This document shows, one piece after another, positions 2,152 through 24,876 of a stretch of DNA of 30,928 bases; positions within the stretch are counted from its first letter, which is position 1; every line of letters begins with the position of its first letter. The notes beneath the pieces were generated by a model that did not search any database, was not told where the DNA came from, and saw only the letters and a program-made list of their open reading frames with translations. Made by a program: the position numbers and the translations under genes. The stretch covers positions 1 through 30,928 of IMG/VR virus record IMGVR_UViG_3300042866_000128, one strand, 5' to 3'. Source of the DNA: a virus.

Positions 2152-3274
2152 GCTAGAAAAACGCATTAAGATTATTCAAGGCGGAACGAGTGCTGGTAAG
2201 ACGTTTGGAATTATTCCTGTACTTATAGACAAAGCTGCTAGGACTGCTGGAATGGAAATAAGCATAGTAGCAGAATCTATTCCACATCTACGAAGAGGTG
2301 CGCTCAGAGACTTTGAAAAGATAATGAAGTGGACTGGTAGATTCTTTGAAAGTAACTTCAATAAGACGCTACTAAAATACGAATTTGCAAACGGTTCGTT
2401 CATTGAGTTCTTTAGTGCAGATGACTCAGCAAAGTTGAGAGGAGCGAGAAGGGACATCCTGTACATAAATGAGTGTAACAATGTGACCTTTGAGTCTTAC
2501 AATGAGCTTTCTATCCGTACACGAAAAGAGATATTCTTAGACTTTAACCCAGCTAATGAGTTTTGGGTACACACCGAACTAAAAGACGAACCTGACGCTG
2601 ACTTTATAATCCTAACCTACAAGGACAACGAAGCCTTAGACCAATCCATAGTAGACCAAATAGAAAAGAACAAGCTAAAAGCTGAGACTTCATCTTACTG
2701 GCGTAATTGGTGGTTAGTATATGGTGAGGGTCAGGTAGGAATGTTAGAAGGAGTTGTATTCTCAAACTGGAAGACAATAGACACAATACCAAAAGAGGCA
2801 AGGCTTATCGGAATAGGCTTAGACTTTGGATACACGAACGACCCTACATCAATTATAGAAATCTACACTCACAACGGACAGAGGATAGTAAACGAACTTG
2901 CTTACCGTACAGGAATGCTGAACTCGGACATAGCTAAAATCTTACCTAAGAATGTAGTAGTCTATGCTGATAGCGCAGAACCTAAATCAATAGATGAGAT
3001 AAGACGCTACGGAATAAACATCAAAGGAGTAACCAAAGGAAAGGATTCGATTAATTACGGTATTGATGTCATGCAAAGAAACGAATACTTAGTAACGTCA
3101 AGCAGTACTAATCTAATCAAAGAGCTTAGGTCATATTGTTGGGACACTGATAAGACAGGAGTCAGGTTAAACAAACCAGTTGGAGGTAATGACCACGCTA
3201 TTGATGCGTTCAGGTATCATGAAATGGAAACTTTAGGTATAAATAGTCACTACGGAAAGTACCATGTAAGGTAG
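2111..3274 (+). CDS. terL: Terminase large subunit (ATPase and nuclease)
   Basis: 387 residues, a compact TerL. Walker A is GGTSAGKT (24-31). Walker B is DILYINE (about 115-121), with Glu as the likely catalytic carboxylate. A motor-domain motif LDFNPANEFW follows. The RNase H-like nuclease domain has GLDFGYTNDPTS (D238), YADSAEP (D287) and GNDHAIDAFRY (D361), the expected acidic triad. It drives ATP-dependent DNA translocation into the prohead at the portal and cuts the concatemer. The ATG at 2111 lies inside terS; starting later would lose the residues just before Walker A. The assignment is secure. Confidence 0.95.
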   Translation: MSLKITTAIRKIYKLEKRIKIIQGGTSAGKTFGIIPVLIDKAARTAGMEISIVAESIPHLRRGALRDFEKIMKWTGRFFESNFNKTLLKYEFANGSFIEFFSADDSAKLRGARRDILYINECNNVTFESYNELSIRTRKEIFLDFNPANEFWVHTELKDEPDADFIILTYKDNEALDQSIVDQIEKNKLKAETSSYWRNWWLVYGEGQVGMLEGVVFSNWKTIDTIPKEARLIGIGLDFGYTNDPTSIIEIYTHNGQRIVNELAYRTGMLNSDIAKILPKNVVVYADSAEPKSIDEIRRYGINIKGVTKGKDSINYGIDVMQRNEYLVTSSSTNLIKELRSYCWDTDKTGVRLNKPVGGNDHAIDAFRYHEMETLGINSHYGKYHVR

Positions 3275-23137: not shown

Positions 23138-23557
23138 ATGAATGGTAAGTTAGGAGTAAATAGAGCTATATTGTGTAAGATTACTGGTATCAGCAACTTT
23201 GAAATGTCCGATTTTTGGGATGTATGCCCGTACACTTTTGAAGGATGGGAAAGACAAACACGAAAGCGTGAAATATTATTTTGGCGTAACGTTGGGATGC
23301 TATACGCTTATCTAAGCGGTTACACTCTAGAAAAAGCTGGTAAAATGTTTCACAGAGACCACGCCACAGTAATTCATAGTATTAAATCAATTGTAACAGC
23401 TTATGAAGGATGGGGACACATTGAGCTAGTTGACATTATAAACACGATTAAAAACTACCAATTAATCAATGTAAACCAATCTCATGATGTCGGAGTCAAT
23501 TATGCTGTTAGCCAAGTTATTTTAGATTCAATGATGGCTGATATAATAGAATTTTAA
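23138..23557 (+). CDS. DnaA domain IV-like DNA-binding protein
   Basis: 139 residues. Residues about 51-85 (GMLYAYLSGYTLEKAGKMFH, then RDHATVIHSIKSI) match the HTH of the DnaA C-terminal domain, where RDHxTVxHA is the signature that contacts the DnaA box. There is no AAA+ module, so it is only the DNA-binding part. The N-terminal 50 residues are Trp/Arg-rich. It could mark the phage origin, compete with host DnaA for its boxes, or act as a regulator. The early-region location, before the replication genes, fits the first two options. Confidence 0.75.
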   Translation: MNGKLGVNRAILCKITGISNFEMSDFWDVCPYTFEGWERQTRKREILFWRNVGMLYAYLSGYTLEKAGKMFHRDHATVIHSIKSIVTAYEGWGHIELVDIINTIKNYQLINVNQSHDVGVNYAVSQVILDSMMADIIEF

Positions 23558-23599: not shown

Positions 23600-23607
23600 T
23601 ATATTTG
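23600..23607 (+). promoter_or_regulatory. Promoter -7 box upstream of structured RNA
   Basis: Exact TATATTTG followed by C, as in the early promoter at 21819. Transcription would start near 23611, which is where the first stem of the structured RNA begins. No clear TTTG is found at -33; a TTGACA lies further upstream at 23570-23575. Confidence 0.6.
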
Positions 23608-23610
23608 CAG

Positions 23611-23705
23611 AACGGTTCGCTTCCACAATATAGAACCATAAAAAAAGTTATTGACCCTGTCAATGAAGTAGAAGTGGAAGCCTACGGATTTGATAGGGTT
23701 TTTTT
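23611..23705 (+). ncRNA. Pseudoknotted structured RNA with intrinsic terminator, upstream of HNH gene
   Basis: Between a promoter-like box and a seven-T run lie several complementary segments. Stem A: 23614-23618 with 23633-23637 (5 bp). Stem B: 23668-23671 with 23682-23685 (4 bp). Stem C: 23654-23663 with 23690-23699 (10 bp, one G:T), followed by T23699-T23705. The loop of A (23619-23626) is perfectly complementary over 8 bases to the loop of B (23674-23681), giving a loop-loop pseudoknot. A competing hairpin TTGAC/GTCAA (23651-23663) uses the 5' side of C. It may be a small RNA of about 95 nt or an attenuator for the HNH gene. No known RNA family is recognised. Confidence 0.6.
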
Positions 23706-23723
23706 ATGCTTAAAAAATTTAAA

Positions 23724-24254
23724 ATGGAAGAAATTTGGAAAGACATTCCTGAATACGAAGGTTTGTATCAAGTGAGTAATTTAGGAAGAGTTAAGAGTTT
23801 GCCTAAAGAATGGATAAGTGGAAATGGAACTATTAGAAGACATAATGGTAAGATTTTAAAAGCTGGTTCAAATAGTGGTGGGTATTTAATGGTTAATTTG
23901 TGTAAGAATTCGAAATGTAAACAATTTTGGATACATCAATTAGTTGCAGTAATTTTTTTAAATCATACTCCTTGCGGACTTAAACTTGTTGTTGACCATA
24001 TAAACGATAACCCATCTGATAATAGAGTTGAAAATTTACAAATTGTAACACATAGATATAATGTTTGTAAAACTCAAGGTAAATATTCAAGTCAGTACAA
24101 GGGGGTTTATTGGAATAAAGCAGCAAAAAAATGGAATTCGTGTATTAAAATAAACAAAAAACAAAAATATTTAGGTCGTTTTACAGACGAATACGAAGCA
24201 CATCTAGCATATCAAAACGCATTAAAACAAATAGAAAATGAGCGGTTGGATTAA
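23724..24254 (+). CDS. NUMOD4-HNH-AP2 homing endonuclease
   Basis: 176 residues from ATG 23724; the frame is open to ATG 23706, but that abuts the T-run of the upstream terminator. The NUMOD4 motif [20 protein letters not shown] (3-22) is followed by an HNH core: H71, then [18 protein letters not shown] with D91, H92 and N104. At the C-terminus is an AP2-like DNA-binding domain ([36 protein letters not shown]). Such enzymes cut a target site and spread by copying themselves in. It is free-standing, more AT-rich than its neighbours, and lies between two replication genes, so it is probably an inserted mobile gene. It overlaps the next start by 17 bases. Confidence 0.9.
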
Positions 24255-24876
24255 ACTACATCGGTCTTTAAAAGATTGGGAGTGGTACGATGACCATAAC
24301 GCAACTAGGCTGCTTTTGCATTTGCTTGTGTCAGTAAACTATGAAGATAAACAATGGAAAGGTCAAACTGTTAAAGCTGGTTCAATGATTACCAGTTGGG
24401 AAAGTTTAGCTAAGGAAGTTGGCTTATCAGTTAAGCAAATTAGGCTATCTATGAGCAAGCTAGAAAGCTCAAAAGAAGTAGTAAGATTTACGACAAACAA
24501 ATGGCAAGCAGTAACCCTAGTAAAATGGGACAAACTGCAAGGCTGCGACAGTAAACAGGGCAGTCAAAGGGGTAGTCAAAGGGCAACAACTAAAGAATAT
24601 AAAGAAATAAAGAAAGATATATATAGGAGCTTCGCTCAATTGTCTATATCTAAAATTGAATTTGAAAAGCTATCTGAAGAATACACTAAAGAACAAATTG
24701 ACAGTACACTAGATGACATTGAAAACTACAAGGATAACAATAAGTATAAATCTTTATATTTGACAGCTAACAAATGGTTAAAAAGGAATTATCCTAAACA
24801 ACCTGATAAACTACCACTAGACCAACTAGACCCATTGGTAAGAAAAGCAATTGAACTCGGATATGAAAAATACTAA
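24238..24876 (+). CDS. DnaD/O-like replication initiation protein
   Basis: 212 residues. The N-terminus [20 protein letters not shown] and the following winged-helix region ([20 protein letters not shown]) are the usual opening of phage replication proteins of the DnaD/lambda O-like type. After a Gln/Ser/Thr-rich linker at about 100-120 comes a helical C-terminus with [12 protein letters not shown], seen in this group for contacting helicase. It should bind the origin and load the replicative helicase. The helicase-like ATPase is the next gene, with a 14-base overlap. Confidence 0.75.

Follow-up and report, generated by a model that had tools for sequence, protein, structure and literature searches.

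The window analysed here, 30,928 nucleotides of viral DNA (IMG/VR record IMGVR_UViG_3300042866_000128, positions 1-30928), looks like most of a tailed-phage genome of about 31 kb, and its genes include those for a terminase, a portal protein, a tape measure protein, a DnaD-like loader, a primase/helicase-like protein, NinG, an Erf-like annealing protein and an exonuclease. On the plus strand, a gene with a DnaA C-terminal HTH domain is followed by a promoter, a compact predicted RNA and a T-run, behind which lie a homing-endonuclease gene of the HNH type and a DnaD-like helicase-loader gene (Table 1). The start of the endonuclease gene is 18 nt past the T-run, and an in-frame ATG is also found at 23706. 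The GC skew near the element shows no turning point.

Table 1. Features of the RNA element and its neighbouring genes, in window coordinates.
Feature	Position	Strand	Basis or remark
Gene with DnaA C-terminal HTH domain	23138-23557	+	just upstream of the RNA
-7 promoter box TATATTTG, TAnnTTTG type of Bacteroidota	23600-23607	+	sequence; also in relatives
Predicted transcription start	about 23611-23614	+	from position of the -7 box
Hairpin A, GGTTC 23614-23618 / GAACC 23633-23637	23614-23637	+	sequence and RNAfold
Kissing strand 1, GCTTCCAC	23619-23626	+	partner is 23674-23681
A-rich linker	23638-23652	+	3' end overlaps the possible competing hairpin, where its 5' arm begins
Possible competing hairpin TTGAC/GTCAA, 23651-23655 with 23659-23663	23651-23663	+	sequence
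Terminator stem C, GACCCTGTCAA 23653-23663 / TTGATAGGGTT 23690-23700	23653-23700	+	encloses hairpin B
Internal loop between B and C, TGAA / GGAT	23664-23667 / 23686-23689	+	sequence
Hairpin B, GTAG 23668-23671 / CTAC 23682-23685	23668-23685	+	sequence and RNAfold
Kissing strand 2, GTGGAAGC	23674-23681	+	in hairpin B loop, after two unpaired A
Terminator T-run, 7 T	23699-23705	+	sequence
NUMOD4-HNH-AP2 homing-endonuclease gene	23724-24254	+	first slot after the leader; homologues begin at 23724
DnaD-like helicase-loader gene	24238-24876	+	follows the HNH gene; replication operon

The -7 box is of the TAnnTTTG type, which is the -7 consensus of Bacteroidota, Flavobacterium included (PMC7366714, PMC10309648). 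Direct reading of the window confirmed the architecture proposed in an earlier note on this DNA, namely two hairpins whose loops match over eight bases, a stem C and a run of seven T behind a promoter. The loop of hairpin A comprises 14 nt, made up of the 8-nt kissing strand and AATATA, and it can form eight Watson-Crick pairs with the loop of hairpin B, while stem C contains 10-11 bp, one or two of them G-U. Both hairpins and stem C are present in the minimum free energy structure as well as in the centroid structure calculated by RNAfold. Folded without the pseudoknot, the window RNA has a predicted energy of -24.9 kcal/mol (z = -3.0), a value as low as which was reached by 0 of 200 shuffled sequences, and the kissing duplex alone is predicted at about -12.3 kcal/mol. 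Inspection by eye for a short leader peptide within the RNA revealed none that is conserved, the reading frames differing among relatives.

Relatives were collected with scans that fixed the promoter and hairpin A. The pattern of viral scan 1 was limited to TTTG, the GTTC...GAAC stem and, within loop A, AC and A-TATA, and it left free the first six loop bases and everything 3' of hairpin A; scan 2 used the stem GTTAC/GTAAC. Together the two scans returned at least 171 matches, and among the matches listed 160 have an 8-nt partner downstream. For scan 1, a fully pairing 8-mer with at most one G-U was found in 112 of the 122 matches listed (fetched loci included; the 112 count the window twice, as it was fetched again), with the partner strand sitting 33-40 nt downstream of the hairpin A pattern in the matches listed. 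In the other 10 a full match is absent or is G-U-rich only. The earlier note had named loss of the eight-base pairing in homologues as grounds for refutation. We looked for such loss and found the pairing kept: among the matches listed, all eight pairs hold in 81 of 81 unique elements from scan 1, compared with a mean of 8.1 and a maximum of 16 after re-pairing, and the kissing pairing is present in 49 of 49 from scan 2. Across the 81 elements there are 21 different strand pairs.

In an alignment of 44 elements from the matches listed, the kissing helix is 100% paired (44/44) and hairpin B 94% paired. Two-sided changes were observed at six of the eight kissing pairs, and the other two (A-U and C-G), whose 5' side was set by the search pattern, are invariant. 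The covariation score of the whole structure is 0.486 versus 0.176 for shuffled data (0 of 500 as high), and when the partners are slid by 1-3 columns the score is at most 0.174, as against 0.486 in the true register. Given this alignment, RNAalifold picked the kissing helix as its only helix. Stem C is under-counted here, as MAFFT places it one or two columns out of register in part of the rows, and it is visible sequence by sequence outside the alignment. The stem of hairpin A changes in a compensatory manner among relatives (GTTC/GAAC, GTTAC/GTAAC, GGTTA/TAACC, TGTAC/GTACA and ATCGC/GCGAT), and a T-run of at least four is found in 113 of the 118 unique relatives among the matches listed. 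Upstream of IMG/VR relatives of the HNH protein this arrangement is frequent, but with entirely different kissing strands, such as GAGTCTCA/TGAGACTC in L122, GGCTCGAC/GTCGAGTC with one G-U in L131, CGTCTCAC/GTGAGACG in L140, GCTCTCAC/GTGAGAGC in L152 and CGTCGAAA/TTTCGACG in L129.

A descriptor made up of promoter, hairpin A, kissing helix, hairpin B, stem C and TTTT was run over related loci totalling 5.1 Mb, where 42 matches scored at least 25, and over 3.0 Mb of Markov-1 shuffles, where 0 did. Since the descriptor demands complementarity, this comparison demonstrates abundance above chance rather than unbiased covariation; an earlier, simple descriptor without the promoter was too loose. 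Many of the records are fragments and sequence relatedness inflates the counts, and the conclusions about pairing are independent of the exact numbers. One sequence alone could match by chance within an ordinary terminator, but an 8-bp match that persists in every unique relative listed, in 21 sequences, and that is absent from the shuffles leaves this explanation a negligible likelihood, and we consider it ruled out by the covariation and the empty shuffles. Judged by comparison of the sequences, the kissing helix is real, and a compact pseudoknotted RNA reaching from the promoter to the terminator, as the note had envisaged, is supported by both sequence and covariation.

In the main subtype the kissing strand abuts stem A and is followed by 6 nt (ATTATA, AATATA or ACTATA), and loop B consists of 2 nt and then the partner strand, which runs directly into stem B. 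Spans of 6 nt and 2 nt over an 8-bp helix would agree with the rules for H-type pseudoknots on loops that cross the shallow and the deep groove. Subtype 2 has an 8-nt loop A of which 7 nt are kissing (L129, L146, L183 and L280). Between B and C, most elements have TGAA/GGA or AGTA/GAAA as the internal loop. AGTA/GAAA occurs in either orientation and was seen in the terminator hairpins of L043, L018, L425, L183, L226:2394 and others; AGUA/GAA is the classical sarcin-ricin (loop E) signature. A less conserved part of the element is the hairpin TTGAC/GTCAA, for which a role as an on/off switch had been suggested. The window does contain this hairpin, but it is only weakly conserved: in 69 relatives the mean pairing is 5.18 versus 4.78, with 0 of 500 re-pairings as high, whereas the count of relatives with at least four pairs falls within the re-paired range. 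An altered form of this hairpin is found in many relatives, for example TTAAC/GTTAA or TTAAG/CTTAA, and statistically both an anti-terminator conformation and the proposed switch have weak support.

The note had linked the RNA to the HNH gene, and this special tie did not withstand a wider sample. When first genes were taken from the listed promoter and hairpin A matches, with the window's own HNH excluded, only 2 of 57 representative proteins are HNH proteins. The other first genes encode DUF6291 proteins, DnaD-like loaders, primases, helicases, matches to primosomal or O-like replication families and DNA methyltransferases, or are small ORFs; the predicted functions downstream are mostly in replication. 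DnaA-HTH-like genes are also found upstream of the RNA in L011, L018, L026 and L030. In L030, the upstream 84-aa protein is nearly the same as that of the window and the RNA is nearly identical, and yet no HNH gene lies behind it; inspection indicates a DUF6378-like gene and a thymidylate-synthase-like gene in that place. Similarly, L026, L011 and L018 have kept the RNA after a DnaA-HTH-like gene without an HNH gene. An HNH-specific attenuator or an HNH-guide RNA would suit the short distance between the RNA and the HNH start in the window, and the RNA does precede many HNH relatives. However, most elements found without HNH bait have other genes behind them, and these four loci retain the RNA on its own. 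We consider an HNH-specific function very improbable and largely refuted by the bait-free samples and L030. The HNH gene of the window thus appears to be a passenger whose link to the RNA is incidental. As the note held, it is not the IscB neighbour of a HEARO-type RNA, the ORF being composed of NUMOD4, HNH_3 and AP2. The slot after the leader (23706-24254 in the window, and its counterparts in L030, L026, L122 and L226) looks like a variable cargo position, with contents that include HNH genes, DUF6378-like and thymidylate-synthase-like genes, orphan ORFs of 58-70 aa and methyltransferases.

The distance between the element and the next gene is closely constrained. Among the matches listed, an ORF begins within -25 to +50 nt of the T-run in all 113 of the 113 unique elements with enough sequence (17.5% for random sense positions and 18.6% for other T-runs), and between +10 and +25 nt in 77 of the 113 (3.6% and 5.5%, respectively), commonly at 16-25 nt. 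A second TAnnTTTG between terminator and ORF was found in 0 of the 113 listed elements, the gap being mostly 25 nt or less. The layout of an attenuator is therefore present, with a promoter, a leader, a G+C stem with a U-run and then a gene. This order and the fixed spacing, as well as the kissing helix, the stems and the independence from HNH genes, are established at the level of sequence. Given that there is no other promoter in the gap, expression of the operon from here needs read-through of the terminator, and with a promoter, an RNA, a terminator and a start codon about 20 nt further on, a conditional or metering terminator is the most economical reading.

A small RNA and an attenuator had both been offered as readings in the earlier note, and both are sensible for a structured RNA that extends from promoter to terminator. 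We favor a cis-acting leader RNA of Bacteroidota phages that serves as an attenuator or metering terminator, a reading to which we assign a probability of roughly two in three. Since the RNA ends in a stop signal ahead of replication genes, the leader probably throttles them. According to this model, transcription would start at the TAnnTTTG promoter, the RNA of about 95 nt would form hairpins A and B and terminator stem C, and loops A and B would kiss through 8 bp. About 20 nt ahead of the operon's first gene, RNA polymerase would then meet an intrinsic terminator, which it would have to pass for the operon, most of whose putative functions are in replication, to be expressed. Termination would presumably be partial or regulated, and kissing may alter the termination decision, although there is no topological conflict between stem C and the kissing helix, and kissing therefore need not control termination. 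With respect to the signal, the leading candidate is the RNA once released, or else a factor from phage or host, which might tune read-through as infection proceeds; the downstream genes vary too much to suggest one ligand.

An autonomous small RNA gene with leaky termination, placed in a compact genome, would show close spacing too. The terminated transcript of about 95 nt could act in trans on a protein or on RNAs, in which case its position would reflect compact layout, and it has the full anatomy of a small RNA gene, with a promoter at its 5' end and an intrinsic terminator at its 3' end, together with compact conserved tertiary elements (the kissing loops and the AGTA/GAAA or TGAA/GGA internal loop). 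However, an independent RNA needs neither tight spacing nor the absence of a second promoter, nor a place directly before an ORF such as all 113 listed elements have, and in the rest of the same phage DNA the 8-mers of its loops do not occur clearly more often than expected (strand 1, 2 occurrences versus 3.3 expected; strand 2, 9 versus 4.6). We regard an autonomous small RNA as rather unlikely. Processive antitermination, in which the leader would modify RNA polymerase to pass its own and later terminators as put RNA does in phage HK022, is consistent with paired hairpins at the extreme 5' end of an operon that must be transcribed through a terminator. On the other hand, put RNA is not known to have kissing loops or to be directly followed by a terminator, and we consider this mechanism quite improbable.

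A further alternative arises from the diversity of the loops. Between near-identical elements, the kissing strands differ by paired changes at several sites (L416/L446, which are identical outside the kissing strands, L417/L437, and L456/L520, which are 99% identical), and in pairs at 95% identity or more, changes per site amount to 0.106 in the kissing strands versus 0.022 in the rest of the element. Because these changes are paired multi-site jumps, a role in specificity is possible. Tight clusters contain a single loop sequence in 26 of 29 cases and only four switches were counted, so that diversifying selection is not proven. Two copies with different loops are found in records L488, L490, L502, L507, L226 and L129; in the first four, which are related phages, the copies lie about 1.7 kb apart and have the loops GTCTTCAC and CGTCTGAC. 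To our knowledge, no antisense transcript is known for the element. Terminated RNAs made from many genome copies might exchange loop pairing with nascent leaders and so provide replication control with specificity, copy-number feedback and mutual interference between phages whose loop sequence is the same. The position at replication genes, the many kissing sequences, the paired switches and the two-copy records are in keeping with such control, and there is a precedent in prophages for RNA-based replication and incompatibility (PMC7157519). Against it stand the predominance of single-loop clusters, the small number of switches, and the fact that differing loops within a record are also expected from the overall diversity. 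We hold this proposal to be doubtful; it can coexist with the attenuator reading, as a special case of it. That the RNA constitutes an RNA-only system of replication control and mutual exclusion in non-integrated Bacteroidota phages, with a shared loop code leading to interference in trans, seems distinctly unlikely. If the loops were indeed a specificity code, they would represent an RNA-based form of competition between phages.

Several known systems resemble the proposed attenuator in part. The plasmid attenuators of pT181 and pIP501 and the RNAI/RNAII pair of ColE1 are examples of antisense-RNA control through loop-loop kissing, and they share with the element a leader of a replication gene, an intrinsic terminator, recognition loops and the kissing interaction itself; the partner there is a separate antisense RNA, whereas here both strands are in one sense RNA. 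Engineered attenuators of the pT181 type have reportedly been studied as well. The C4 RNA of phage P1 and the CI RNA of phage P4 are small phage RNAs in operon leaders that act through complementary segments of their own transcript, but their complementary targets are found at other places in the leader or near a start codon, and not in a second hairpin loop. Purine and other kissing-loop riboswitches likewise combine loop-loop kissing with a terminator; the present RNA, in contrast, has no three-way junction, its hairpin A is outside the terminator stem, and there is neither a common downstream pathway nor an Rfam match. HEARO (omega RNA) is comparable in lying beside an HNH ORF, as the RNA does in the window, and differs in that the neighbor here is not IscB, the association is optional and Rfam gives no match. 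Extrachromosomal mycobacterial prophages have RNA-based origins, in which a noncoding RNA initiates replication and bears on compatibility (PMC7157519). Those are temperate actinophages, whereas the element described here is a leader of a protein gene and is rare in hosts.

Scanning with all 4227 models of Rfam 15 produced no match in the window, only weak chance matches at E >= 2, and there were none in 18 loci and none at E <= 1 in five further loci. The covariance model of C4 antisense RNA was among those giving no match. Membership in a known Rfam family was rejected, as no score reached the gathering cut-off, in agreement with the initial impression of an undescribed family. We found no description of the element in the open-access literature surveyed. 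Model R1, which is based on RNAalifold, has base pairs for the kissing helix alone, and its training set was a single subtype; it would therefore probably miss the subtype with the 8-nt loop A. With this model, 48 of 50 viral records (phage records of about 30 kb) have one match each. In host chromosomes the element is rare: at E <= 0.001 a match was found in 1 of 399 Flavobacteriaceae genomes, a lower bound because the filters are strict and only one subtype is modelled. BLAST searches of cultured phages with three variants of the RNA found a real element only in the snusmum phages (E = 0.1), and in snusmum6-1, cultured on Flavobacterium sp. LMO6, it precedes a helicase gene; this isolated phage is one in which the element is testable. 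Many Bacteroidota viruses appear to have a kissing-loop RNA of about 95 bases in the stretch that separates a promoter from the first replication gene. The element represents a well-supported family of structured RNAs that Rfam lacks, in Bacteroidota phages, where gene regulation is little known, and it would provide a concrete regulatory point before their replication genes.

Other structured leaders were seen in the same material. A second type, covarying and pseudoknotted, lies upstream of NUMOD4/HNH-type genes at L128:630, L130:2506, L135:2891, L138:2900, L206:2391, L211:2390, L222:2397, L234:2385, L378:3411, L575:2156 and on the minus strand of L501 (12510, a coordinate of the reversed locus), and also in Polaribacter phage P12002L (L203, about 2925-3020). 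It had no Rfam match in the subset scanned. Its parts are a TAnnTTTG promoter, a P1 stem ending in a T-rich run, an inner hairpin with a TAATTA-like loop, and a strand of 7-8 nt inside P1 whose complement lies directly ahead of the start codon. A repeat of this partner strand (5-7 nt) follows at a distance of about 12-14 nt in 10 of 11 elements. A descriptor for this leader gave 17 matches, a few of them family-1 or stray, versus 0 in shuffles, and the downstream genes look like HNH endonucleases in 7 of the 7 cases checked. Finally, at L179:1424-1530, in front of an HNH gene and with a promoter of the TATAAT type, GTCGAGATAGT and ACTATCTCGAC match over 11 bp and so join the transcript start to the loop of a terminator hairpin, the same logic in a different topology.
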